Source: Gammaproteobacteria bacterium HGW-Gammaproteobacteria-3 (lineage in GTDB: Bacteria; Pseudomonadota; Gammaproteobacteria; Methylococcales; Methylomonadaceae). Taken from it: 41,105 nucleotides of DNA. The notes under the pieces were generated by a model. That model was not told where the DNA came from. It made no database searches and saw nothing but the letters and a program-made list of their open reading frames with translations. Position numbers and translations under genes: made by a program. The stretch is taken from contig PGZD01000018.1 of the NCBI GenBank assembly GCA_002843155.1, positions 39,370-80,474 on the forward strand, written 5' to 3'. Shown piece by piece: positions 1,439 through 41,054 of the stretch (position 1 is its first letter; every line of letters begins with the position of its first letter).

Positions 1439-1494
1439 CCGTCATAAAGATGTAATCTGTATGTAACAATTTTGTAACAATAATGCATTATGAT
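1439..1494 (+). promoter_or_regulatory. tandem PhoB-type box and -10 for the TonB operon
   Basis: Four 7-base half-sites are spaced exactly 11 bases apart: CCGTCAT (1439-1445), ATGTAAT (1450-1456), ATGTAAC (1461-1467) and TTGTAAC (1472-1478). This is the 7+4+7 layout of Pho boxes (consensus half-site CTGTCAT). A -10-like TATGAT starts at 1489, exactly 10 bases after the last half-site, the position expected when PhoB replaces a -35 element. Transcription would start near 1500 and leave a leader of about 100 bases before the DUF3450 gene. No regulator gene is in the window, so PhoB control is inferred from the site alone. Confidence 0.7.
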
Positions 1495-1601
1495 TCACCT
1501 TTTTAAAAATGCGGGCTTGAATGCGCCTGCGGCTTGAGTTCCGGGGTTTTCGGGGCTCTTATAAATCATGCCGCAACGCCTTACCCTTTTATCAGGTGTC
1601 G

Positions 1602-2378
1602 ATGAATATGAATGCCGTAACAAAATTTAAATCGGGCGCGATAACAATGGCCTTGGGAGGGCTTCTAAACATCAGCCCGCCCGTTAGTGCGGATACCTTG
1701 GAAAACCTTGCGCAGACATTGATTTCGATGCGGGGAGAAGTCGAGGAATTGCAATCCCAACTGGACATGGAAAAACAGTCCCATAGAACCCGTATGGACG
1801 CCTTGAGTTCGCAAATGGCCGATTTGAGCGTTGACAATCAACGTCAAGAAGTCGCCATGGAAAAACTGCAACAAACGCTCGTTAAATATGAAGAGGCCAG
1901 CGCTCAAGCCAAAAGTGGCGATGAAGTCTTGGTGCCCGTTGTGCTGGCCGCGCTGGATGATTTGAAGCAATATGTTCAGGACAGCCTGCCTTTTAAAACA
2001 GAAGAACGGCTGGCGGGACTTTCCGAGCTGAGAACACAGGTTGAAACCCGGCTTCTAAGCCCTAAAAAAGCGGCGAACCGGGTGTGGTCTTTTGTCGAGG
2101 ATGAAATCCGCCTGACGCGCGAGAACGGCGTCTACAGCCAGACTATAAACCTGGGCGGCGAGCAGCGTCTGGTCGATGTCGCCAAACTGGGCTCCATGTT
2201 TCTCTATTTTCAAGCCAACGATAACCACTATGGCATGGCGATCAAGCAAACGGGCACATGGCGTTTTGTCGAACTGAAAAATCAGGAAGAAAAAGAGCAG
2301 ATTGCATTGCTGTTTGATTCACTGAGAAAACAAATTCGGCAAGGTTATTTTGAGCTGCCTAATCCTTTGGAGTCGTAA
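1602..2378 (+). CDS. DUF3450 protein, first gene of a TonB operon
   Basis: This is a probable exported protein of 258 residues in the DUF3450 family, whose members are typically encoded just upstream of TtpC/ExbB-ExbD-TonB clusters. The start at 1602 (MNMNAVTKFKSG) follows AGGTG and gives a signal-like N-terminus: basic residues, a hydrophobic stretch ITMALGGLLNI, and a likely cleavage after VSA. A longer in-frame start at 1521 would put 27 non-signal residues in front and is less likely. Residues about 35-110 are strongly predicted coiled coil (SMRGEVEELQSQL and similar), followed by a compact C-terminal domain ending LFDSLRKQIRQGYFELPNP. It abuts the next gene with no gap (TAA then ATG). 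The expected role is a periplasmic accessory of the TonB energising complex; its biochemical function is not known. Confidence 0.85.
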   Translation: MNMNAVTKFKSGAITMALGGLLNISPPVSADTLENLAQTLISMRGEVEELQSQLDMEKQSHRTRMDALSSQMADLSVDNQRQEVAMEKLQQTLVKYEEASAQAKSGDEVLVPVVLAALDDLKQYVQDSLPFKTEERLAGLSELRTQVETRLLSPKKAANRVWSFVEDEIRLTRENGVYSQTINLGGEQRLVDVAKLGSMFLYFQANDNHYGMAIKQTGTWRFVELKNQEEKEQIALLFDSLRKQIRQGYFELPNPLES

Positions 2379-3881
2379 ATGAAATATCTGTTGGTTGGAT
2401 TTTTAATCAGTGCCGCCGGTTTTCAATCGGCCCTAGCTCAGGACGCGCCGAAAGCAACGGCAGGGGCCGCTTCGGCCAAGCAGGCAGCCCCTGCGGCAAA
2501 AGCGGAACCGGAAGTGAAAAAGGACAAGCCGGTATCATTGGCCGCGACCTATAAAAGAGAATTCGCATTTTTGCAGGCGCAGAAAAAAGAACTGGAAAAC
2601 AGGCTGAAGACATTTAAGGCGCAGGCGGCTCATGCCGAGCAAAGTATCAGCCGGAAAATCAGCAGTCTGGAAAATAAAAATATTGCCTTGTCGGCCAAAG
2701 ACGAAGCCATCCGAACTCAATTGGCCAATGCCGAACGTAAAGATGAGAGCTTGAGCGATAACCATGAGTTGTTGGAGATGACCTACTCGCAAGGTAATAC
2801 CAGTCTCGATGCTTACGGCAAGTCTCTCGAAAACAATGCCGACTTTACCGCCGCGACCGATGACGGCAAGCTTGCCATGCTGTTCGGGCAAGCGACCGCC
2901 CTGCTTAAAGATTTAGGCAGTATCCGCACGAGTGAAACACACTTTTTCAAAGCGGACGGCAGTGAAATAGCGGGCGAGGTCATCAATGTCGGTAACATTG
3001 CCGCTTACGGCGTCAGTGATGTCGCCAGCGGCATTTTAGTACCGGCGGGCGGTGGCCGTCTTAAATTGTGGAGCGAGCCGTCCGAAAACGTAGCCAAAGG
3101 CCTGTTGACCGGAAAAATGCCCAACAGCCTGAAGATATTTTTGTTTGAATCCAAAGACAAAGCGGTCGATGAAAAACAGCAGAAAACCGTAATGAGCATT
3201 ATCGATTCCGGCGGCACCATCGGCTGGGCCATTGTCGGTCTAGGTTTGGTGGCCGTGGTGCTGATCGGTATTCGCTGGGCTTTGCTGTATTTTGCCTCGC
3301 TCAACACCCAATCGATTGCCAAAGTGGTGATTCCGTTATTGCAAAAAGATAAAGAACAGGAAGCGCTGGCTTACTGCAAGCAGCAAAAAGGCCCGTTTGC
3401 CCGGGTTTTGATGGCCACTATTCAAAACTCCCACGGCAATCGGGACCATATGGATGATGTCATTTCCGAAGCACTGTTACACGAAGCCGGAGCGTTAAAC
3501 CGCTTTGGCTCGGCGATTCTGGTGATTGCTTCCATCTCCCCGTTACTGGGTCTGTTGGGCACGGTAACCGGGATGATTTCAACCTTTGACATTATCACCG
3601 AATTCGGCACCGGCGATCCCAAGCTTTTATCCAGCGGCATATCCGTAGCGTTAGTGACCACCGAGCTGGGTTTGATTATTGCCATTCCGGCTGTGCTGGC
3701 GGGAACCCTGCTCTCCAGTTGGTCGGATGGCATCAAATATGATCTTGAAGAAGTGGCGCTCAAAGCCACCAATATCCTGCTCGATAAAGATCATCCGGAA
3801 AAAGTTCAGCGAAGAATACTGGCCGAAGCCAACAGCATGGCGGGTATCAAAGGCCTGGAGCCGGATTATGCGGCCGGTTGA
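2379..3881 (+). CDS. long MotA/TolQ/ExbB proton-channel protein (TtpC-like)
   Basis: This 500-residue protein combines an N-terminal periplasmic part with a C-terminal MotA/TolQ/ExbB domain, the build of TtpC, which in Vibrio works with a second ExbB-ExbD-TonB set. A signal peptide (MKYLLVGFLISAAGF, cleavage after ALA near residue 20) is followed by an Ala/Lys/Pro-rich linker and a coiled coil (about residues 50-130). The first channel helix lies near residues 278-302 (WAIVGLGLVAVVLIG). The conserved ExbB core follows at SPLLGLLGTVTGMISTF (about 385-402) and TTELGLIIAIPAVLAGTLL (about 427-446). The start directly abuts the DUF3450 stop, which indicates translational coupling. It most likely gives an extra or regulatory layer to force transduction to the outer membrane. 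Confidence 0.9.
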   Translation: MKYLLVGFLISAAGFQSALAQDAPKATAGAASAKQAAPAAKAEPEVKKDKPVSLAATYKREFAFLQAQKKELENRLKTFKAQAAHAEQSISRKISSLENKNIALSAKDEAIRTQLANAERKDESLSDNHELLEMTYSQGNTSLDAYGKSLENNADFTAATDDGKLAMLFGQATALLKDLGSIRTSETHFFKADGSEIAGEVINVGNIAAYGVSDVASGILVPAGGGRLKLWSEPSENVAKGLLTGKMPNSLKIFLFESKDKAVDEKQQKTVMSIIDSGGTIGWAIVGLGLVAVVLIGIRWALLYFASLNTQSIAKVVIPLLQKDKEQEALAYCKQQKGPFARVLMATIQNSHGNRDHMDDVISEALLHEAGALNRFGSAILVIASISPLLGLLGTVTGMISTFDIITEFGTGDPKLLSSGISVALVTTELGLIIAIPAVLAGTLLSSWSDGIKYDLEEVALKATNILLDKDHPEKVQRRILAEANSMAGIKGLEPDYAAG

Positions 3882-3920
3882 TTTATTTTCTCTGCGTCAC
3901 CGATTTGATTGGGTGAAATC

Positions 3921-4511
3921 ATGGAACTGATCAGCGAAATAAAAGACTTCATGGATAAAGGCGGTTTTATCATGCCGCCTTTGCTGTTCCTGACTGTGCT
4001 GCTCTGGTACGGCCTGGGCTATCGCTTTTGGGTACTCAGGCGCAGTGGCCGCTACAGTGTGCGGGAATTAATCAAACAAAATAAAAACGACTGGCAAAAA
4101 CAGCCAAAAGATATAGTCGAGGAAGCGGTCAGGGTTGGCTTTGCGATTAAAGCACAGGCGCCAGAGCATTTGCGCAAGCATCTGGATGTCGAGTTTTATC
4201 CTTATGAAAAAGAACTCAGAAAATTTACCGCGCTGATCAAGATTGTCGTGATTCTGGCGCCATTGATGGGTTTGCTGGGTACCGTAACCGGCATGATCGA
4301 GACTTTCGATTCCCTGGCGGAAATGGCGCTGTTCACTCAGTCCGGCGGCATCGCGGGCGGTATCGCCCAAGCCTTGTTCACAACCCAGATGGGTTTGTCG
4401 GTAGCAATTCCTGGGGTTCTGGCCAAAAGCGCCCTGGATCGTAAACAAAGCCGAATACAATCCGAGCTTGAGCAAGTCAAGGATTTATTGAGTCTTGAAG
4501 AAACCCGGTAA
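3921..4511 (+). CDS. exbB: ExbB-type proton-channel subunit
   Basis: This is an inner-membrane ExbB/TolQ family subunit of 196 residues that forms the proton channel with ExbD and energises TonB. ATG 3921 has GGGTGA 5-6 bases upstream; a TTG start at 3909 is in frame but less likely. The first membrane helix is FIMPPLLFLTVLLWYGLGY (about residues 14-32). The conserved pair of helices follows at LMGLLGTVTGMIETF and TTQMGLSVAIPGVLAKSAL. It is shorter than E. coli ExbB (244 residues) and resembles the compact ExbB2 type found in TtpC clusters. It lies between the TtpC-like gene and exbD in one operon. Confidence 0.92.
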   Translation: MELISEIKDFMDKGGFIMPPLLFLTVLLWYGLGYRFWVLRRSGRYSVRELIKQNKNDWQKQPKDIVEEAVRVGFAIKAQAPEHLRKHLDVEFYPYEKELRKFTALIKIVVILAPLMGLLGTVTGMIETFDSLAEMALFTQSGGIAGGIAQALFTTQMGLSVAIPGVLAKSALDRKQSRIQSELEQVKDLLSLEETR

Positions 4512-4554
4512 AACCGGCCAATAGACACACACAGTTTAAACAGTAGGTTATTGC

Positions 4555-4959
4555 ATGAGATACCGAGAAAAAACCGACTTTTCCCAGGCTTTGGATATTT
4601 CACCCCTGATCGACATTGTTTTTATTTTGTTGATCTTTTTTATGGTGACCACAACCTTTGTCAAAGACATGAAGCTGGAACTGGAGCGGCCGAGCGCATC
4701 CAGCGCCAATACCGCCTCCTCCAAAGCTATTCGCCTGTATATCGATCAGGCCGGTGACACTTATCTGGACGGCGAACCCATCAGGGTGTGGCTGATTCAA
4801 AGCAAGCTGCGGGACTTATTGAAAGCATCCGCCACGGCCAGCGTGCTGGTGGTAACCGATGATGGCGTGCCCGCCGGCAAACTGGTTGAAGTCGTCGATC
4901 AGGCGCGCTTGGCGGGCGCCCAGGGCGTTGGCGTGGCCACTAAAAAAGAAGCGGGCTAA
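4555..4959 (+). CDS. exbD: ExbD biopolymer transport protein
   Basis: This 134-residue ExbD/TolR family protein has a single N-terminal membrane helix and a periplasmic domain. The helix ISPLIDIVFILLIFFMVTTTF carries the essential proton-carrying aspartate (the D of PLIDIVF, near residue 20). The periplasmic part ends with DDGVPAGKLVEVVDQARLAG, typical of ExbD. It functions with the upstream ExbB subunits and the downstream TonB. The 43-base gap after exbB and the same-strand order support cotranscription. Confidence 0.93.
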   Translation: MRYREKTDFSQALDISPLIDIVFILLIFFMVTTTFVKDMKLELERPSASSANTASSKAIRLYIDQAGDTYLDGEPIRVWLIQSKLRDLLKASATASVLVVTDDGVPAGKLVEVVDQARLAGAQGVGVATKKEAG

Positions 4960-4969
4960 GGGATTATAA

Positions 4970-5617
4970 GTGGCTACAGACAAGCTTACAGAAAAGCGGG
5001 GCAAATACCTGTCCGGCTCCATCGCCATGCTAGTGGGGCCAGTGCTGGTATTCGGCACCGTTTTGTTCATGAACCGGATGGATGATGGCCTTGATAAAGG
5101 CCATCAGGAAAAGTCCACCGAGCTGAATGTGGTCAAGCAGGAAAAGCCCAAACCCAAGAAAAAAGTTCAGAAACGAAAAGCCAGGCCCAAACCCCGACAA
5201 TCGCGTGCACCGGCTCCCGTGACCGGCTTGAACTCGAATTTATCGGGTATCGATTTAGGTTTATCCAGTCTGGGCGTGGACGGATTGGACAATGACAACA
5301 GCTTGCTCGGCAACACCCAGGCTTCGGTCATGACTGAAGATACCGTTGATACCTTGCCGCAGCCCAAAGTCAAAGGCAATTTTGTCTATCCCAAATCCGC
5401 CAAAAAACGCGGCATCGAAGGTTATGTGGTGCTGTCGGTGCTGATAGATACGGACGGCAGCGTTGACAAGATCCAGGTGCTGGAATCATCGCCTCAGGGC
5501 GTGTTCGACGACTCCGCCATCGCGGGACTCAGAAACTGGCGCTTTACGCCCGCGCAGTATCAAGGTCAGGCGGTCAAAGTCTGGGCTAAGCAGAAAATAC
5601 GATTTGGACTCGGGTGA
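4970..5617 (+). CDS. tonB: TonB energy-transducing protein
   Basis: This TonB protein of 215 residues spans the inner membrane once and contacts outer-membrane receptors. The start is GTG at 4970, preceded by AGGGA. The membrane segment is GSIAMLVGPVLVFGTVLF (about residues 16-33). It is followed by a short Lys/Pro-rich spacer (KPKPKKKVQKRKARPKPR) that is much more basic and shorter than the E. coli Pro-Glu/Pro-Lys stretch. The C-terminal TonB domain (about 135-215) has YPKSAKKRGIEGYVVLSVLI, SSPQGVFDDSAIAGLRNWRF and a final KQKIRFGLG. It is the fifth gene of the DUF3450 operon and overlaps the TPR gene start region. Confidence 0.93.
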   Translation: MATDKLTEKRGKYLSGSIAMLVGPVLVFGTVLFMNRMDDGLDKGHQEKSTELNVVKQEKPKPKKKVQKRKARPKPRQSRAPAPVTGLNSNLSGIDLGLSSLGVDGLDNDNSLLGNTQASVMTEDTVDTLPQPKVKGNFVYPKSAKKRGIEGYVVLSVLIDTDGSVDKIQVLESSPQGVFDDSAIAGLRNWRFTPAQYQGQAVKVWAKQKIRFGLG

Positions 5618-5625
5618 TAAACACT

Positions 5626-6843
5626 ATGATGATTTTGACTAAGGCGGATAAAGTGCCGGAAAGCGTGGCGTTCGAGCGCTTTATGTCGGCTTTATTGGTT
5701 TTACTGATGCTGGGTTTTGCGGTTGCAGGTTTTGCGAAAGACTCGGAAAAAAAAGACCCCGATACCTTTGCGGTCGGCGATTTAATGCCACTGGCAGCCA
5801 TGCTGATTAAAGACGGCAATCCCGGCCGCGCCGTGAAAACCCTGCAATCGATCGATTTAACCCAAGAAGACCTGGATCTGGCGCGTTATTACACTTTGTT
5901 GGGGATGGCGCAAATGGGGCTGAATGATCTGGCCTCGGCCAAAGACAGTATCGGACAGGCGATTGCCAACGGTCAGTCCGACCCGGTTATCTATGTTTAC
6001 CTGGCGCAAGCGCATTACGGCTTGAAGGAATACCCGGAAACTTTGGCCGCTATAGACCACGCGCAGGCGGTATATAAAACCTACCCCGCGCTGATTGAGA
6101 TGAAAACCCACGCGCATTGGCTGTTAAAACAATACGATCAGGCTTGGGATGCCTTGACGCTGGGTGAATCGCTGTTTCCCGACAATGATAAATTTTTGCA
6201 GCGCCGGGTTTTTTACGCCATGGATTTGGGGCTGTACCGCAATGCCGCTGAATTGGGTAGACGGTATTTAGCCAAATCAGCCGCCAAACCGGAAGATTTT
6301 GTCACAATTGGCAATGCTCTACGCTTGAGCCGACAATTTGACGAGGCGACCAATATTCTCGAAGCGGCCCGGTTGAATTACCCAGAACATGTCACGTTAG
6401 CCAAAGTGTTGGCGCATACTTATCTGGATCAGGGCATGACCAACGCCGCTGCGGCGATACTCGAACAAGCTTCGCGTTATAACGCTGAATTCATCTCCGA
6501 AGCCGCCGAATTATATAAGCGCGCGGGGCGCCTATACCGGGCTCTGGAATTGAATGCCCAGGTGCCTGACCAGACAATAAAGCTCAAGCAGCGGCTGGCC
6601 ATTTTACTGGGTTTGAAAAGATATGAAATGGTCATCAATATGGAGGCGACACTGTACCGCGCCCATTTATTGGGTGATCAGAATATTCGCTATGCCTTGG
6701 CATATGCGGCCTACTCCATCGGGGAGTTTGAACAAGCCAAAAAGCATTTGCGTTTTGTCAAGGAACCGGGTTTGTTCAAGCAAGCCATGGAGCTGCAACG
6801 ACTGATGCAGGAATGCGCGGACGAAAAATGGAAATGCGCGTAA
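5626..6843 (+). CDS. TPR-repeat protein of the TonB operon
   Basis: This is a tetratricopeptide-repeat protein of about 405 residues at the end of the operon, as is usual for DUF3450/TtpC clusters (TtpB-type TPR proteins). A hydrophobic stretch FMSALLVLLMLGFAVAGFA near residues 20-38 looks like a signal peptide or anchor. Helical repeats follow throughout, for example YYTLLGMAQMGLNDLASAKD, PVIYVYLAQAHYGLKEYPET and FVTIGNALRLSRQFDEATNI. ATG 5626 sits 8 bases after GGGTGA; a GTG at 5614 that overlaps the tonB stop is the alternative. Its likely role is as a periplasmic scaffold for the energising complex; direct evidence is lacking. Confidence 0.85.
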   Translation: MMILTKADKVPESVAFERFMSALLVLLMLGFAVAGFAKDSEKKDPDTFAVGDLMPLAAMLIKDGNPGRAVKTLQSIDLTQEDLDLARYYTLLGMAQMGLNDLASAKDSIGQAIANGQSDPVIYVYLAQAHYGLKEYPETLAAIDHAQAVYKTYPALIEMKTHAHWLLKQYDQAWDALTLGESLFPDNDKFLQRRVFYAMDLGLYRNAAELGRRYLAKSAAKPEDFVTIGNALRLSRQFDEATNILEAARLNYPEHVTLAKVLAHTYLDQGMTNAAAAILEQASRYNAEFISEAAELYKRAGRLYRALELNAQVPDQTIKLKQRLAILLGLKRYEMVINMEATLYRAHLLGDQNIRYALAYAAYSIGEFEQAKKHLRFVKEPGLFKQAMELQRLMQECADEKWKCA

Positions 6844-6930
6844 GGCGCGCTTGCTTCAAAGCGGGAGAATTCCCGTCCGGGATGTAAAAGTTCCCGGTCA
6901 TGTAACCTTTACACTCATCGTAGATCAAAA

Positions 6931-6966
6931 TTCGGCCCCTCACCTAACGTTAGGTGAGGGGCCGAA
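6931..6966. repeat. 36-base perfect palindrome before the TonB receptor gene
   Basis: Positions 6931-6966 are an exact inverted repeat with its centre between 6948 and 6949 (arm TTCGGCCCCTCACCTAAC) and no loop. After one mismatched pair, three further A/T pairs extend it on both sides. It lies 87 bases after the TPR stop and about 54 bases before the receptor start. As RNA it would fold into a very stable hairpin, but only TTT follows on the plus strand (TTTT on the minus), so it is a weak terminator candidate at best. A protein-binding site or a mobile-repeat scar are alternatives. Confidence 0.8.
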
Positions 6967-7019
6967 ATTTGAAGTGCGAAAGGTATAAATTCAGCCATAG
7001 CCACAGTCCAACGCCATTT

Positions 7020-10000
7020 ATGACGAAGTATTTTTACGCCGCCGTATTATTCGCTTTTTTGAGTTTGTTTGCCAAGGTTCATGCCGCCGATTCAGCATCG
7101 GTTTACCTGTATTTATTCAAAAGCGGAAAACCTTTGCCGCAAGTCGAAATCAGCGCTGATGGCGCGCAATCGATAGCCTCGGACAAGGATGGTTATGCCC
7201 GGATGCAGCTCGATCCCGGCGCGCATCATTTGTCTTTTCGCCAAAGGGGACAGGAACTTCTGGAACTGGATTTACCGTTGTCGGAGACTGAAAACATCCA
7301 GTTGATCATCACCTTTTTCAGTTATGGCCAAAAGCCCCGGGTGGAAATTGAAAGTTCCAATGCCGCCAGAGGAAAACAGCTCGCGGCATCGGAAAAAAAA
7401 CCAGAAGCCCTGGGAAAAGGTTTTCTTGAAGGTGAGGTAACAAGTTCGGAAACCAAAAAACCCATCGCCGGCGCCCAGGTTTTTATCAGCGGCCTGGCCA
7501 ATGAATTGACGACCGACCAGCAGGGCAAATTCAAAGCTGAAGTGCCGGTGGGCGAATACAGCATTTCCGTATTGCATTCCGATTTCAGCACCCAAATCAA
7601 GGACAAGGTTCCGGTAGTCGCCGACGCCACGACCACGCAACCTTTCGCGATGACGCCAAGGGGGCTCGAATTGCCGGAATATGTCGTGCTGGAGCCGCAT
7701 ATCGGCGGCAGTCTGGCCTCGATTATCGAAGAACAAAGAACGGACTCGGCGGTCAGCAATGTACTGGGCGCCGAACAAATCACCCGTAACGGCGACTCTG
7801 ACGCCGCCAGCGCTTTGCGGCGCGTAACCGGCTTGACCCTGGTGGGCGGCAAATTTGTGTTTATCCGGGGCTTGGGTGAGCGCTATTCCACCACGCTGCT
7901 CAACGGCATTTCGGTGCCCTCGCCGGACCCGACCCGGCGCGTGGTGCCTTTGGATTTATTTCCCACCAGTGTCCTTGAAAGCGTATTGATCCAAAAATCC
8001 TATTCGGTCGACCGGCAGGCAGAATTTGCCGGCGGCACCGTCGAGTTGCGTACCCGGGGTATTCCCGATGAATTTTTTGCGGAAATTGACTATCAAACCG
8101 GCTTTAACGATGGCACCACCTTTACCAAGGGTCTGCGTTACAAAGGCGGCGACTTGGACTTTCTCGGCGCCGATGACGGCGCCCGCGCGCTGCCCGGTTC
8201 TTTACAGAATGCACTTTCCGGCGGCCGGGTATTGAGGCCGCAAACACCGTTCAATCCTGACGGCTTCACGCGTGAACAGCTCGATGGTTTCGGCCGTGAT
8301 TTGTCGGGTGTTTATGACGTCAACGAAAAAAACATCAACCCCGATCAGCGTATCAGTGCGGCGCTGGGCGATGCCTATGAATTCGGCGATTTCGGCTTCG
8401 GTTTTACCAGTTCGCTACGTTGGTCGGATACCTGGGATACGCAGGATGAAATACTCAATACATTCGCGGTCAACGGGGTTGGGGCTAACGGCGCCGCCAG
8501 ACTCGATCCTATTATCGAAAACAACATGACCCGGACGGAACGGGAAACGCAAACCAACGGTTATTTAGGCATGGAAGGCCATTATACCGAGCATCATAAA
8601 CTGTTCGCCCGCGCTATTATTCTGCGCCAAACGTTCGATGAGGCGCGCATCACCGAAGGCTTTTCCGATGCCGACGCCACCGACATCAGGCGCACCCGGC
8701 TGCGCTATATCGAAAATAAACTGATCGTCGGCCAATGGGGCGGAGAACATGCGTTGAACCGCATCGGCAATATCAACTTACTCGACGGCATCGACTGGCT
8801 TGGCGATATCAAGCTGGACTGGCAGCTTTCGCGCGCCAACTCGGGGCGCGAAGCGCCGGATGAGCGCGAATTCCGCTTCGACAGAATCGGTGACGATTTC
8901 TTTTTTTCACGGCGCGCGGACAGCAATTCAAGCACTTTTTCGTCGCTGAACGATGACGATATGAGCTACCGGCTCGATCTGACCATTCCTTTTAATTTTC
9001 ATAAAAACCTGACCGGCGCCTTGTCATCCGGCTTTATCGATCGGCTGCTTACCCGTGAATCCGCTATCCGGCGCTTCAGTTTTGCCCCGTCCGGAGCGCT
9101 CTCGCGGGATTCGGACATTTTAGGGCGAAATTCGGTGGAAGCTATATTGAGTGATGAAAATATCGGCACGCAAGGTTTTGTACTCAATGAAACCACACGC
9201 GCCACCGATAATTTTACTGCGGAACAAAAGCTGTTTTCCTATTACGGCCAGGGCGATGTCACCTTGTTCGAGCGGCTGCGCCTGACCGGCGGCGTTCGGG
9301 TCGAAGACAACGACCAGACGGTCTCGACTTTTCAGTTGTTCAACCCTAACAATGCCCCCATCGAATCGACTCTGGCGCAAGTAGACCTGTTGCCGTCGGC
9401 AGCGGCTACGTTGTTTATCACCGATAAACAGCAATTGCGTTTCAGTTATTCGGAAACCCTGTCGCGGCCTGATTTCCGGGAGCTTTCGCCCGCCCCCTTC
9501 ACCGATCCTAACAACGATAAGGAAACGGTGGGAAATCCCGACTTACAGCAAGCCGAAGTCACCAGTTATGACGTGCGCTGGGAATATTACTTTTCCGGCA
9601 CTGAAAATCTGACGTTGGGATGGTTCAGAAAAGAATTGACCAACCCCATCGAAACTATTTTATTGCCGGGCCCTGCGGGACTGTTGACCTTGCAAAACGC
9701 CGCCACTGCCGAAATCTTCGGCTACGAAGCGGAAATTTTGAAACACCTGGAGTTTATTTCGCCGAAACTGGCCAACTTTTTTGTCGGCGGCAACTATACC
9801 TGGTCGCAGTCGGAAATCGAGCTACTGCCCGCAAACCTGCAAACCCAGACCACCAACTTCCGACCTTTGCAAGGGCACTCGAAATATATCATCAATGCCC
9901 AGGTAGGCTACGACAATCCGGACAACGGCATCACCAGCACCTTGCTTTACAACACCATCGGCAAGCGCATCACCGAGGTGGGCTCCCTGGGCGCGCCCGA

Positions 10001-10187
10001 TAAATATGAACAGCCTTTCGATCAGCTCGATTTCGTTTTCCGTTATAAATTTCCGGAGCACTATTCGGTGGCGTTCAATGCCCGCAATCTGCTCGATGAT
10101 ACCGTCACTGTGCGCCAGGGCGACAGGGTCACGCGCCAGTTTAAAAGAGGCCGCGAGTTTCGGCTGAGCTTCAAACTGGAGTTCTGA
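7020..10187 (+). CDS. TonB-dependent outer-membrane receptor with N-terminal regulatory-like domains
   Basis: This is a large TonB-dependent receptor of about 1055 residues. ATG 7020 gives a clean signal peptide (MTKYFYAAVLFAFLSLFAKV, cleavage after VHA). Two beta-sandwich domains follow: one at about 25-100 (VYLYLFKSGKPLPQVEIS) and a carboxypeptidase-regulatory-like domain at about 137-215 (GEVTSSETKKPIAGAQVFIS). The plug is at about 235-370, with SDAASALRRVTGLTLVGGKF, FIRGLGERYSTTLLNGI and AGGTVELRTRG. The rest is a beta barrel ending in LSFKLEF with the terminal Phe typical of outer-membrane barrels. No TonB box is obvious by eye. It lies directly downstream of the TonB operon, so it is the likely client receptor. 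The substrate is unknown; the Pho-type promoters around it point to a phosphorus source. Confidence 0.92.
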   Translation: MTKYFYAAVLFAFLSLFAKVHAADSASVYLYLFKSGKPLPQVEISADGAQSIASDKDGYARMQLDPGAHHLSFRQRGQELLELDLPLSETENIQLIITFFSYGQKPRVEIESSNAARGKQLAASEKKPEALGKGFLEGEVTSSETKKPIAGAQVFISGLANELTTDQQGKFKAEVPVGEYSISVLHSDFSTQIKDKVPVVADATTTQPFAMTPRGLELPEYVVLEPHIGGSLASIIEEQRTDSAVSNVLGAEQITRNGDSDAASALRRVTGLTLVGGKFVFIRGLGERYSTTLLNGISVPSPDPTRRVVPLDLFPTSVLESVLIQKSYSVDRQAEFAGGTVELRTRGIPDEFFAEIDYQTGFNDGTTFTKGLRYKGGDLDFLGADDGARALPGSLQNALSGGRVLRPQTPFNPDGFTREQLDGFGRDLSGVYDVNEKNINPDQRISAALGDAYEFGDFGFGFTSSLRWSDTWDTQDEILNTFAVNGVGANGAARLDPIIENNMTRTERETQTNGYLGMEGHYTEHHKLFARAIILRQTFDEARITEGFSDADATDIRRTRLRYIENKLIVGQWGGEHALNRIGNINLLDGIDWLGDIKLDWQLSRANSGREAPDEREFRFDRIGDDFFFSRRADSNSSTFSSLNDDDMSYRLDLTIPFNFHKNLTGALSSGFIDRLLTRESAIRRFSFAPSGALSRDSDILGRNSVEAILSDENIGTQGFVLNETTRATDNFTAEQKLFSYYGQGDVTLFERLRLTGGVRVEDNDQTVSTFQLFNPNNAPIESTLAQVDLLPSAAATLFITDKQQLRFSYSETLSRPDFRELSPAPFTDPNNDKETVGNPDLQQAEVTSYDVRWEYYFSGTENLTLGWFRKELTNPIETILLPGPAGLLTLQNAATAEIFGYEAEILKHLEFISPKLANFFVGGNYTWSQSEIELLPANLQTQTTNFRPLQGHSKYIINAQVGYDNPDNGITSTLLYNTIGKRITEVGSLGAPDKYEQPFDQLDFVFRYKFPEHYSVAFNARNLLDDTVTVRQGDRVTRQFKRGREFRLSFKLEF

Positions 10188-10205
10188 TAAGCCGTTGGTT
10201 TGTAT

Positions 10206-10239
10206 TTGTCACAAAATTGTCATATCGAGCCGCTAGAAT
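10206..10239 (+). promoter_or_regulatory. PhoB-type box and -10 for the secreted repeat protein
   Basis: TTGTCAC (10206-10212), a 4-base AAAA gap and TTGTCAT (10217-10223) form a near-consensus Pho box with 11-base repeat spacing. A -10-like TAGAAT begins at 10234, exactly 10 bases after the box. The site lies just after the receptor stop and about 147 bases before the next start codon, so it should drive the D/N-rich protein separately from the receptor. The leader RNA contains an A-run/T-run segment (about 10300-10318) of unknown role. Confidence 0.75.
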
Positions 10240-10370
10240 TCAATCACCGAAGTTGGCGTCGAGTTAATTTCTCAACGCCCGCTCGATGCCGGCCTTAAAA
10301 AACCGTGGTGTTTTTTACGGACTTTTACCCGCACTTCTCATTCAACCTTAACTAAAGAGGAAATTATCCG

Positions 10371-12017
10371 ATGTCATTCCCAACGTTTAAAAAAAATAAA
10401 TCCGCCCTAGCGGTGCTTACCCTATTGGGTGGTGCGCTGGTGGGCGGCGCGGCCCATGCCGCCACCGCCAATTTTGATTCTGCCAGCTCGCAATTGCACA
10501 TTCAGGCAGTCGATGTACCCAGCAGCGCTTCCAAAGTCGACACTTTCGATGCCACTTTGAAAATGGTAGCCACGTCTCCACTGATTCAATTCGAATTAAT
10601 GGCGGCGTCTGTAGTACCGACACCTGATGCACTCCGGGTACATTTTGACGCCAGCACCAGCAAAGTTTTCATACCCACCGTCACCATCGACAATAGTAAT
10701 GAGGAATGGTTTGCCGAGCTGGAACTGGTGCCGGGCTCCGATCCTTTGCGCTTCAATGTCACCAAATTACACAGCACACAATTTTCAGGCTGCCCCGGCT
10801 TCTCAACGCCAATAGGCGGCAATGCCTGTCAATTGTCAGGCAGAATCACTTCCGATGTAACCTTGACCAACAACATTCTGTGGGGGCTTAATGGCGCTGT
10901 CGATATTGGCGACGACAACACGCAACCTGCCACCTTGACCATCGAACCCGGTACGCGCGTAGTCGGCCAGTCCGGCGCCGATTTTCTGTTCATCAATCGC
11001 GGCTCTAAAATCAACGCCGTCGGCAGCCCGCAGCAGCCGATCATTTTTACCGGCGCGGCGGATGATGACTCCGGCACACTGGCGCCGGGCGCCTGGGGTG
11101 GTTTTGTTATTGCCGGTAATGCCCCTGTCAACGGTTGTAACACGGGTATTGTTTGTGAGCAATTCGACGAAGCTTTGACCCGTCCTTACGGCGGCAATAA
11201 CCCGGCTGAAAACAGCGGTATTTTAAAATACGCGCAAATCCGTTTTGCCGGTGTCGAGATTCGCCCGGATAACGAACTCAATGCCTTGACGCTGCTGGGT
11301 GTGGGTGCGGGCACAACGCTTGATTTTATCCAGGTGCATCGCGGTAAAGACGACGGCATTGAAATGTTCGGCGGTACCGCGCAGTTCAAACATCTGGTAG
11401 CCACCGGCATGTCCGATGATAACATCGACTGGGGCCAAGGCTGGACCGGTAAAGCCCAGTTTGCGTTGATCCAACAAGTCGGGGACGACGGTGACAATGG
11501 TCTGGAGGCCGATAACAACGAAAGCGATTTTAACAGTTTGCCGCGCTCCAAACCGGTTTTGGCCAATATTACCGCGATCGGCACCGGCAGCACAACAGTG
11601 GGTGGCAACGGCGCATTGCTCAGACGCGGTACCGGCGCCAACATTCATAATTCGGTATTTACCGGGTTCAGAAAGTCGTGCCTTAACATCGATTCCGATG
11701 CCACTTTCACCAATGCCGGTACGCCAGGTAATCTGACCGGTGAATTGACTCTGGTCAACACCTTTGTTGACTGCGCCACCAATTTTGACGATCAACCGGC
11801 CGAGCCATTTCTGGTCAGTGCCTGGTTTGACTCACAAACCGGCAATGAGGCGGCCAATCCACAGTTAGCAGGTTTTCTGCCTGCGCCGGGCTCGCCTTTG
11901 ATTACCGGCGGCGCGCCGGTACAGGGTGACGCCTTTTTTGAGGCGACCACCTATTCAGGCGCGTTTGCCGATGAAAACGACAATTGGACCCAAGGCTGGA
12001 CTTTTGGCCTGAACTAG
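10371..12017 (+). CDS. secreted D/N-rich protein, probable right-handed beta-helix
   Basis: This is an exported protein of 548 residues of unknown function. ATG 10371 follows AGAGGAAA. The N-terminus has a basic start, a hydrophobic core (SALAVLTLLGGALVGGAA) and AHA cleavage near residue 31. The central part has short repeating strand-turn units (ANFLF-, ITFTG- and IRFAG-like) that suggest a parallel beta-helix. Acidic/Asn clusters recur: KDDGIEMFGG, DDNIDWGQGW, DDGDNGLEADNNESDF and the C-terminal DENDNWTQGWTFGLN. These would suit calcium binding. Several Cys residues (SGCPGF, NACQL, NGCNTGIVC, SCLNI, VDCAT) could form disulfides. It is paired with the TonB receptor and has its own Pho-type promoter, so it may be a surface or periplasmic binding partner or an enzyme. 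No catalytic motif is recognised. Confidence 0.85.
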   Translation: MSFPTFKKNKSALAVLTLLGGALVGGAAHAATANFDSASSQLHIQAVDVPSSASKVDTFDATLKMVATSPLIQFELMAASVVPTPDALRVHFDASTSKVFIPTVTIDNSNEEWFAELELVPGSDPLRFNVTKLHSTQFSGCPGFSTPIGGNACQLSGRITSDVTLTNNILWGLNGAVDIGDDNTQPATLTIEPGTRVVGQSGADFLFINRGSKINAVGSPQQPIIFTGAADDDSGTLAPGAWGGFVIAGNAPVNGCNTGIVCEQFDEALTRPYGGNNPAENSGILKYAQIRFAGVEIRPDNELNALTLLGVGAGTTLDFIQVHRGKDDGIEMFGGTAQFKHLVATGMSDDNIDWGQGWTGKAQFALIQQVGDDGDNGLEADNNESDFNSLPRSKPVLANITAIGTGSTTVGGNGALLRRGTGANIHNSVFTGFRKSCLNIDSDATFTNAGTPGNLTGELTLVNTFVDCATNFDDQPAEPFLVSAWFDSQTGNEAANPQLAGFLPAPGSPLITGGAPVQGDAFFEATTYSGAFADENDNWTQGWTFGLN

Positions 12018-12143: not shown

Positions 12144-12632
12144 TTAACCTACCCGGCCACCTTTTTCATAATCAATGGCCATGATGGTCCAGATGAACTC
12201 GCCTGTCGCGGTTTTAACTATCGCCTCGTCATCGACTGTTTTCTTCAGCAAGGCCCGCGCCATAGGGGAATCGACCGAAATATAATCCTTGCGGCCGAAT
12301 ATTTCATCATAACCTGCAATCCGAAAGCGCAGGGTGTCGCCTGCGTCATTTTCAACCGTTACCCAGGCGCCAAAAAAAATCCGGTTTTCCTGTTCGGGAT
12401 GATAATCGACGATTCGCAGACTCTCCAGGCGTTTTTGCAGATAGCGGACGCGCCGGTCTATTTCCCGCAGCCGCTTCTTGTTGTATTGGTAGTCCGCGTT
12501 TTCGCTACGGTCACCGAGGCTCGCTGCCCAGGTTACCATTCGAGTCACTTCCGGCCGTTCGACACGCCATAGCTCATCCAATTCCTGTTTGAGTTTTTCA
12601 TAACCCTGTCTTGTGATAAGCGCTGTATTCAT
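12144..12632 (-). CDS. greB: transcription elongation factor GreB
   Basis: GreB stimulates transcript cleavage by backtracked RNA polymerase. The 162-residue protein matches the GreB pattern throughout: an N-terminal coiled coil with WAASLGDRSENADYQYNKKR, where the acidic/Asn tip residues act at the polymerase secondary channel, then LREIDRRVRYL, and a C-terminal FKBP-like domain with YDEIFGRKDYISVDSPMARA. Start ATG 12632 (MNTALITRQGYEKL) fits the family; the frame is open upstream to 12683, but the extra 17 residues have no counterpart. It is a single gene with a shared terminator at its 3' end. Confidence 0.95.
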   Translation of the reverse strand: MNTALITRQGYEKLKQELDELWRVERPEVTRMVTWAASLGDRSENADYQYNKKRLREIDRRVRYLQKRLESLRIVDYHPEQENRIFFGAWVTVENDAGDTLRFRIAGYDEIFGRKDYISVDSPMARALLKKTVDDEAIVKTATGEFIWTIMAIDYEKGGRVG

Positions 12633-13099
12633 TGTTTTGTAATGCCTTGAATTCGCGAACCTTGAAACTGAGCAAAAAGGCATTTATAGCCCTTAATAAC
12701 AGGATAAACAGATATCCATCGTTACCGAAATACTACATGACTATTCAACCTCAAATCTAAGGAAAACAGGTAGAGGTTATTTTTTGCGAGTTACCCAATC
12801 ACTTCAGCTTTCGCTTACGGCCTATTGTCTGAGTGACTTTGTGCTTAATCTTTAGGGTTACCCCCGCCGACCCAAAGACTCTACCCAGTGGCTGACCAGC
12901 CTTCCGGCACGGGATTCCCCCCGCTGATACAAACGACCTTGTCTGGCCGCACTGACTATTCAGGCCTCAGAGTTACGCATTGTTCGTAGGAGCCCGGTTT
13001 ACCGCTCTCTATTGTGTCGGCAGCCAAAATTAATGGCATTTTACCCAAATGAGTGCGTACAATGGACAGCCCCTATTTCAGATAATTAAAGAGGTCGAG
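12633..13099. other. gene-poor stretch, possible mobile-element remnant
   Basis: About 470 bases separate greB and the next plus-strand gene. The first part should hold the greB promoter. The GC-rich block from about 12850 to 13020 differs in composition from the AT-rich bases before it and reads like worn coding or structured sequence, but stops interrupt every frame I tried and I recognise no family. A possible -10 (TACAAT, 13058-13063) lies before the next gene. No confident RNA gene or repeat was found. Confidence 0.3.
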
Positions 13100-40392: not shown

Positions 40393-41054
40393 TCATTCGA
40401 TCAATAAAAATACAATCTTCACTATTTTGTGAGCTAATGCAAAGATGGCTCGTTTTCGCCCTCGTCGAATCAGCAAACCTTTGAACATATCCTGTAGCCG
40501 ACAGGGTGTTCGACTCGCCGCATTGGATGCCTCGCATACAATTCGGCGTACGTAGGGGTTACTCTTGCGGGTTTTGCCCGTTTTCTTTTTGCCTGCCGAT
40601 TCGTTATTGCCTGGGCAAACACCCGCCCAGGAAGCAAAACGTTCCGGCGTTACCCAAGCACTCATATCATCGCCAATTTCCACCCACAACAAAACGGCTC
40701 CGGTTTCATCCAGCCCGGGGATGGTTTGTAGACTCCGCAAAATAGCTTGATAAGGCGCAAGTCCTTGCAATAGTGCTTGACGGAAAGTCCCAATCCGGGC
40801 TTCCAATTCGTCAATTGCGCCATCAGTTCGGTGAGTACGAAATGATGAGAGGGACTTAAGTCACCCACTAACGCATCCAGAAGCTCTTCGTCGCCGGCTT
40901 TAAGGCGATTGCTCGCATACTGTAACACCTGCTCGGGCGATTCTCCGACTAACAGGCATTTAATCATCGCTTTTGCTGATTTGCCGTGAATATCACTGAC
41001 CACAACCCTTAACCCAACTTCGTCACCTAATAACGAAGTTCCCCGCCATTTCAA
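40393..41054 (-). pseudogene. frameshifted IS110-family transposase remnant
   Basis: Two minus-strand frames together match the C-terminal two thirds of an IS110 transposase. The upstream frame has VVSDIHGKSAKAMIKCLLVG and HHFVLTELMAQL. The downstream frame has LQTIPGLDETGAVLLWVEIG, FASWAGVCPGNNESAGKKKT and FALAHKIVKIVFLL. They join near 40812-40816, where loss of one base after MAQ turns IDELEARIG-type reading into LTNWKPG. The N-terminal DEDD catalytic part is missing, because an in-frame stop lies just upstream of 41054. This is a dead copy. Confidence 0.85.

Follow-up and report, generated by a model that had tools for sequence, protein, structure and literature searches.

In Caulobacter crescentus, the exoprotein ElpS (CC0170) is induced by phosphate starvation, and its overproduction is accompanied by more secreted phosphatase activity. 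ElpS crosses the outer membrane independently of the type II secretion system (T2SS), by a route to the surface that is described as unknown, and its gene stands in the order elpS-cc0171-gspC (PMC2996285). The exoproteins FI, FII and FIII of Flavobacterium johnsoniae (Fjoh_3856, 0546 and 4889, reported together with PUSIII and PUSIV) appear at phosphate (Pi) depletion, have a polygalacturonase-like fold and are 31-36% identical to the Caulobacter lipoprotein over 50-54%; FI, the most abundant Pi-deplete exoprotein, is encoded beside a TonB-dependent transporter (TBDT), and FII lies in a phoBR cluster (PMC8115612). A PhoB regulon that includes the T2SS and TonB-dependent receptors has also been reported (PMC11208175). 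Here we analyse a gene set in Gammaproteobacteria bacterium HGW-Gammaproteobacteria-3 that combines a TonB motor operon, a receptor and a secreted beta-helix protein. It lies in a stretch of 41,105 nucleotides of contig PGZD01000018.1, hereafter the window, which is part of a 3.13 Mb genome in 135 contigs. On balance we favour the reading that PhoB controls the set and that it serves to scavenge phosphorus at the outer membrane.

The genes and promoter elements are as follows.

1439..1482, + strand: Pho-type element of four tandem 11-mers, CCGTCATAAAG ATGTAATCTGT ATGTAACAATT TTGTAACAATA; best box 1461-1478, score 12.0
1489..1494, + strand: -10 hexamer TATGAT, 10 bp after the first box
1602..2378, + strand: ttpB-like gene, DUF3450 (PF11932, E 4.8e-35); the reading frame opens at 1521, and 1602 is the likelier start
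2379..3881, + strand: ttpC-like gene, MotA/TolQ/ExbB family (PF01618, E 1.5e-25)
3909..4511, + strand: exbB (PF01618, E 1.8e-26); TTG at 3909, ATG at 3921 possible
4555..4959, + strand: exbD (PF02472, E 7.8e-28)
4970..5617, + strand: tonB (PF03544, E 1.4e-24)
5614..6843, + strand: ttpD-like TPR protein gene (TPR_19, E 9e-11)
6931..6966, no strand: hairpin with a 16-bp stem in the gap between operon and receptor, a possible terminator
7020..10187, + strand: TonB-dependent receptor, 1055 aa, with a CarboxypepD_reg extension at the N-terminus (residues 136-212), Plug and barrel
10206..10223, + strand: Pho box TTGTCACAAAATTGTCAT before the beta-helix gene, score 13.5
10234..10239, + strand: -10 hexamer TAGAAT, 10 bp after the second box
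10371..12017, + strand: exported beta-helix protein, 548 aa (AlphaFold2 (AF2) model, fold matches and family alignment)

All eight genes were confirmed in the window on the + strand, the six-gene motor operon and the receptor by Pfam matches. A first-pass annotation had listed a complete DUF3450-TtpC-ExbB-ExbD-TonB-TPR operon; the gene list was right, every member was confirmed by Pfam, and the likely starts of the DUF3450 and receptor genes were corrected to 1602 and 7020. The order TtpB(DUF3450)-TtpC-ExbB-ExbD-TonB-TtpD(TPR) is encoded at 1602-6843 with gaps of -4 to 43 bp, and is followed by 176 bp before the receptor and 183 bp between the receptor and the secreted gene. The receptor was thus placed correctly between operon and secreted gene; its barrel matched at E 4e-32, and its AF2 model had a mean predicted local distance difference test (pLDDT) score of 73. 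Among relatives that carry the entire module, Methylobacter luteus (L110) is the nearest found; its secreted protein is 74% identical, and for this reason the window host is probably a methanotroph of Methylococcales.

A Pho-type promoter had been proposed before the operon and before the secreted gene, and both held up. Pho boxes were scored against the textbook consensus, with a score fixed at a stage when only the relatives from the first family search had been looked at. Both window boxes are direct repeats of period 11 with two half-sites, as in the Pho regulon, and both -10 hexamers match TATAAT at 5/6 positions exactly 10 bp past the 18-bp box. The score of the second site, 13.5, is the maximum attainable, and it was the sole such site in 305,392 strand-positions of the same genome (stretches partly overlapping). 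A Markov-1 model of 2,000,000 bases gave 2 sites of at least 12 and none of at least 12.5, so the window boxes exceed chance. A sigma-70 -35/-10 scan of the window listed neither promoter, as expected because the Pho box takes the place of the -35 element. The E. coli box CTGTCAT-N5-CTGTCAT, allowing 2 mismatches, gave 36 matches in the genome versus 17 for the reversed control, and neither window site was among them. Elsewhere in this genome a PhoB gene is present above the cut-off, pstS has a box of 12.5 with a -10 matching 5/6, and an operon that we take to be phn-like, by its likeness to L090, has boxes of 12.5 and 11.75. The site at phoB scored 11.75 without a fitting -10 (1/6), and a second pst-like gene on contig C55 had no clear box. 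A Porin_O_P gene (L051:2238-3740) carries overlapping Pho boxes with a score of 13.0 and may encode a second outer-membrane phosphate route. The genome also holds a paralogous pair (G000:C96, L049:229-5309), a secreted gene (48% identity) and then a receptor, with no motor on the 6.7 kb contig. The best site upstream of this pair is a palindrome (TTGTCATAAAAATGACAC) followed at 10 bp by a -10 of 5/6, an ambiguous candidate for a Pho box.

The same promoters were scored in 52 loci collected by a GTDB genome scan with three secreted proteins. The scan relied on two peptide patterns, which favours close relatives, and nearly all loci are from Nitrosomonas or methanotrophs. Genes with fewer than 250 bases upstream or with N were omitted (for the beta-helix gene L091, L106 and L112), as was L111, the second beta-helix gene of the L090 contig, later rescored at 12.5; the paralog L049 was kept. 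A box of at least 11.5 preceded the beta-helix gene in 34 of the 49 scorable loci versus 11 of 367 other genes (mechanical open reading frames (ORFs) of at least 150 aa), and preceded pstS, the positive control, in 11/11. The corresponding counts were 5/17 for DUF3450 and 0/11 for PhoX-like genes, and no inner gene had such a box (TtpC 0/22, ExbB 0/23, ExbD 0/23, TonB 0/22, TPR 0/26). In Mann-Whitney comparisons with the other genes the secreted gene gave 5e-26 and DUF3450 2e-8, values that are not true probabilities because the loci are related. The -10 element had a preferred position. At the beta-helix gene the mean match was 3.98/6 at a spacer of 10 (n=45, box at least 11), the 24 remaining spacers giving 0.6-2.6, and at pstS it was 4.36 at a spacer of 10 (n=11) and up to 3.2 elsewhere. 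Three loci (L067, L091 and L101) have the order secreted-motor-receptor and give the three lowest DUF3450 scores; the box precedes the secreted gene in both that could be scored (L067 13.25, L101 12.25). The first-pass annotation had suggested asking whether Pho boxes accompany the receptor clade, and they do so at the partner beta-helix gene but not at the receptor itself, which had none of at least 11.5 in the 31 cases scored.

DUF3450 genes also served as an internal control in six genomes, where 'near' copies were those no more than 16 kb from a beta-helix gene, on its contig and strand. All six near copies had a box of at least 12.0 (five genomes, the window included, two copies being from one genome), and none of the five distant copies did (scores 9.25 to 10.0); the weak DUF3450 matches L179 and L180 were left out of this comparison. 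In one genome of the Nitrosomonas genus the DUF3450 and beta-helix genes are each present twice and share the same Pho box (G162:C1:863930 and 3196038). Iron had been named as a rival inducer, and Fur-like sites (at least 14/19 matches) were not enriched among the relatives' loci (DUF3450 0/17, beta-helix gene 1/49, other genes 7/378), so Fur control of the module is unsupported. Copper or lanthanide control, for which the spread among methanotrophs and nitrifiers might speak, would be a further candidate.

The receptor was found in 30 of the 52 loci, at least one motor gene in 28 and all six motor genes in 17, with many of the loci being short. Of the 35 loci that extend 9 kb or more upstream, the receptor was present in 27 and the motor in 26. 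PhoX-type, phytase-like, pstSCAB or phosphonate genes occurred in 17/52 stretches, pst genes in 11, a count that rises from 17 to 21 if response regulators labelled phoB are included. Pfam supported the identity of example neighbours (PhoX E 2e-167 and 2e-24, Phytase-like E 7e-59, Phosphonate-bd E 2e-67). One contig (L090 and L111, JAJDEF010000044.1) of a metagenome-assembled genome labelled Planctomycetota, probably a binning error, carries two beta-helix genes, one of which follows a receptor and directly precedes the genes of a GntR-like protein and a phosphonate-binding protein, the latter identified by Pfam.

Six loci belong to one gammaproteobacterial family, Alteromonadaceae-like by its plasmid relatives, and here boxes of at least 11.5 preceded the secreted gene in 6/6 and DUF3450 in 4/4. 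L151 and L154 have the order phoB-phoR-pstS-like-secreted-receptor-motor, and L155 has the same order with the motor missing from the stretch. In L149, phoB-phoR is directed away from the pair and there is no motor, and L150 and L153 have the pair and the motor with phoBR not in the stretch. Boxes are found at phoB itself in the Alteromonadales-like loci L149, L151, L154, L155 and L189. In the Alteromonas macleodii plasmid pBGP9 a single cluster reads phoB-phoR-pstS-oxygenase-Secr-TBDR-DUF3450-MotA-ExbB-ExbD-TonB-TPR, where Secr is the secreted gene and TBDR the receptor, with boxes before phoB, Secr and DUF3450. The phoBR-linked module of A. macleodii L189 (NZ_OX359244.1) is on a plasmid typed as non-mobilizable; being plasmid-borne, the module can move between replicons. 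Two Pseudoalteromonas replicons have the order motor-secreted-receptor with boxes of 12.0/12.0 and 11.75/10.5 (secreted/DUF3450).

More widely, the beta-helix family (E<=1e-10) occurred in 30 of 299 sampled phylum genomes and 22 of 154 genera, the window's genome counted. In its own family 7/61 genomes matched, with full-length proteins only in the window's genome (two copies) and G052. Twenty of the 29 other matching phylum genomes were fetched for locus reading, and a receptor of the same family adjoined the beta-helix gene on the same strand in 20/20 of these distant loci. L158 comes from another class, probably Alphaproteobacteria, and there gspC-gspD-gspE come after the pair on the same strand (order Secr-Rec-gspC-gspD-gspE, with Rec the receptor); in L159 gspD and gspF do so. 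Relatives of the beta-helix protein occur in genomes with the Caulobacter gene order and on Bacteroidetes plasmids.

Phosphate control of the gene set is therefore well supported by comparative sequence evidence, namely the stereotyped promoters, the contrast between near and distant DUF3450 copies, and the phoBR, pst, PhoX, phytase-like and phn neighbours, and the conserved set is very probably a phosphorus system under PhoB control. Several findings weigh against this reading. Most of the 52 loci are from Nitrosomonas, so the counts are not independent. Scores below 11.5 were obtained for 15 of the 49 beta-helix genes, down to 8.75 in L117; the DUF3450 boxes are weaker, with only the 5/17 noted above, and their -10 signal is not sharp. 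In the 35 loci with 9 kb or more upstream, the receptor is missing from 8 stretches and the motor from 9. Beyond the Alteromonadaceae-like family, the beta-helix boxes of the distant loci are sparse or ill placed (L152 11.5, L164 11.25, L165 12.0 at -238, L166 11.5 at -198), L160 and L162 have no box of at least 11 before the beta-helix gene, and the high-GC distant loci fall outside the box scoring. The Pseudoalteromonas loci lack a good -10 at 10 bp, and one DUF3450 gene there reaches just 10.5. In the window itself, the first site scores 12.5 on the minus strand versus 12.0 on the plus strand, with a -10 only for the + orientation. A pattern made post hoc from both sites fits exactly only those two places in the 3.13 Mb genome, and with one mismatch allowed it gave 6 matches versus 7 for the reversed control. 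The receptor gene lacks its own Pho box, and the hairpin stands between it and the operon; terminator-like sites as a class were not in excess there (17 vs 16.1 expected). In Caulobacter, cc0171 was reported not to be Pi-induced, and its deletion left ElpS production unsuppressed (PMC2996285).

At E 0.001 neither Pfam nor NCBIfam had a model that matched the secreted protein, and a profile search of Protein Data Bank (PDB) sequences found no relative at E 1. It has a signal peptide without a lipobox, six cysteines and a net charge of -33. The first-pass annotation had called it a secreted D/N-rich protein, and the signal peptide was confirmed; the enrichment is mild, with D+N at 14.7% of the mature chain. 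The AF2 model, based on 33 of the 48 collected sequences, had a mean pLDDT of 89.7 and predicted an N-terminal beta domain at about residues 33-135 followed by a right-handed parallel beta-helix at about 140-545. VIA-align matched this fold at Z about 22 to phage tailspikes, NosD, alginate epimerases and the pectate lyase Pel9A. The window protein thus has a predicted pectate-lyase-like beta-helix, a fold common to many unrelated enzymes, and the likeness therefore does not give the function. D327, D328, E331, D349, D350, D353, Q363, E379, N399, N427 and four cysteines are conserved in 36 or 37 of 37 helix domains. From its conservation and the fold, we read the ladder of acids as a putative Ca2+-type binding site for a polyanion. 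A likeness to the Ca2+ site of Pel9A was dropped, since the residue numbers could not be mapped. The N-terminal beta domain (window 10467-10776) recurs in other proteins of related genomes as matches of about 100 residues, and it is doubled in the G052 protein.

We propose that at low phosphate PhoB would switch on the complete TtpB-TtpC-ExbB-ExbD-TonB-TtpD motor and, at the second promoter, an exported acidic six-cysteine beta-helix protein of the ElpS and FI-FIII kind. Outside the outer membrane this protein may bind or process mineral-bound material or a polymer that carries phosphorus, probably by means of the acidic Ca2+-type site D327, D328, E331, D349, D350, D353 and E379. The partner receptor, powered by the dedicated motor, would bring the ligand to the periplasm, and phosphatases and PstSCAB would then complete phosphorus acquisition. 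The gene content, the Pho promoters, the conserved pairing, the phosphate-gene neighbourhood and the predicted fold are supported by the sequence, and we infer the surface location in the window organism, the Ca2+, the ligand, inward transport and the service of this motor to this receptor. Import is the default for TonB receptors, and we regard inward transport of a phosphorus ligand as the probable direction. The first-pass annotation had pointed to TonB-driven uptake of a phosphorus source under Pho control; the control is well supported by comparison, uptake is the inferred part, and the receptor lacks the box.

The alternative that survives best, though we think it unlikely, is that in methanotrophs and ammonia oxidisers the dedicated Pho-controlled motor drives an Oar-type receptor in the opposite direction, so that a non-lipidated ElpS-type protein is exported through the outer membrane and would then mobilise external phosphorus. 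Oar of Myxococcus xanthus is a TBDT with a PF13620 extension (a domain called NTE), as in the window receptor, and exports PopC, which unlike the window protein is a protease without a signal peptide (PMC6434023). The PF13620/CarboxypepD_reg extension of the window receptor recurs in all 21 window-group receptors scanned, of 28 collected, and in a search of the receptor profile against the PDB the one TonB-linked receptor, 9gbc, matched over the extension only. The lipobox follows the opposite pattern: a lipobox-like site was seen in 1/52 window-group ORFs (L117, SAAC, doubtful) versus 13/13 ORFs of distant relatives plus 6/6 further high-GC ones. Among ten distant receptors scanned, the 8 without the extension all have lipobox partners and no plain copy, and of the two with it, L148 has a partner with a plain signal peptide and L167 has one lipobox and one plain partner. 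The beta-helix gene is present in 25/31 genomes of the G162 genus, assigned to Nitrosomonas because G367:C105:670-2265 coincides with the named locus L105, and the T2SS secretin GspD was found at E<=1e-70 in 0/31 of them, with E. coli and Caulobacter controls positive. The T2SS-independent passage of ElpS described above also fits export. Against it, the window's own genome has GspD above the cut-off, G162 has secretin matches below it, and the protein could simply remain periplasmic. The F. johnsoniae receptor Fjoh_3857 has PF13715 and yet stands beside a lipoprotein (PMC8115612), and the mixed cases L167, with a lipobox copy beside the extension, and L117, with the extension and the lipobox-like SAAC, slightly lowered our estimate of this alternative. 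If true, it would be a phosphate-starvation secretion system made from TonB import parts, in nitrifiers without a type II secretin above the cut-off.

Less probable still is that the motor is a general phosphate-controlled TonB2-type energiser for several receptors and that the neighbouring receptor takes up a metal on which phosphate enzymes depend, for example iron or calcium for PhoX. Vibrio TonB2 has the same six-gene order as the window, is iron-controlled and drives siderophore uptake (PMC6957404), but Fur-like sites were not enriched, the genome that holds the motor has a further DUF3450 gene (C101) without a Pho box, and the motor tends to occur together with the beta-helix gene. That the boxes belong to another regulator of the OmpR/PhoB family with a similar direct repeat is improbable: the first window site departs from the E. 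coli consensus (TGTAAC for TGTCAT) and the genome's own phoB site has no fitting -10, but pstS has the same boxes and geometry in 11/11, phoB itself has boxes in the five Alteromonadales-like loci, and the module has phosphate-gene neighbours.

The PhoB-controlled scavenging system proposed here has published counterparts. Its receptor and beta-helix protein resemble the low-phosphate ElpS/Cc0171 and FI-FIII pairs, with the window protein likened to CC0170 and Fjoh_3856 by description and gene context and not by alignment. As in Caulobacter, the gene of a low-phosphate exoprotein adjoins a TonB receptor, and L158 shares the gsp order; unlike the window, ElpS is a lipoprotein with T2SS genes beside its pair, and no TonB operon is mentioned for it in the passages considered (PMC2996285). 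FI-FIII are also lipoproteins, from Bacteroidetes, and no TonB motor operon is reported for them in the passages considered (PMC8115612). The first-pass statement that no substrate is established for the combination stands, and the same holds for these similar low-phosphate pairs, which were already in print (PMC2996285, PMC8115612). Vibrio TonB3 has the six-gene order too and starts with an outer-membrane receptor; unlike the window, it responds to serum and, by a cited title, to Lrp/CRP, and the passages considered mention no beta-helix partner for TonB2 or TonB3 (PMC6957404). Identity with TonB3 was dropped, because TonB3 is under other control and the likeness is one of gene order without sequence comparison. 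The window is not of the SusCD/Pus type, as the secreted protein has no Pfam match, and hence no match to a SusD-like partner, and no lipobox.

In P. aeruginosa, exbB2/exbD2 belong to the phosphate-starvation VreI regulon. A Pho-controlled TtpC-type TonB operon with such a pair was not found in open-literature titles and abstract openings, a search that leaves subscription papers uncovered and makes the novelty provisional. Two features appear to be new: the dedicated TonB motor of the TtpC type, which has a Pho promoter to itself, and the lack of a lipid anchor on the partner protein of methanotrophs and nitrifiers.

Around the module, a gene on the opposite strand downstream, presumably GreB-like, is common to the window (12144-12683, -) and Nitrosomonas (L102:19524-20072, -; L089:12898-13446, -). 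The window ends, 1-240 and 40393-41054, hold what we take to be transposase-like fragments, and fragment 1-240 abuts undetermined bases in the contig.

Related sets occur in nitrifying and marine bacteria, some of them beside known phosphate genes, and the carriers are ammonia and methane oxidisers, which act in the nitrogen and methane cycles, and marine Alteromonadales. ElpS-type proteins are sometimes the most abundant exoprotein under phosphate starvation, as in F. johnsoniae, and a gene set that ties such a protein to a receptor and a private TonB motor makes both the substrate and the surface route experimentally approachable. The TtpC-type TonB system would thereby gain a function besides iron.

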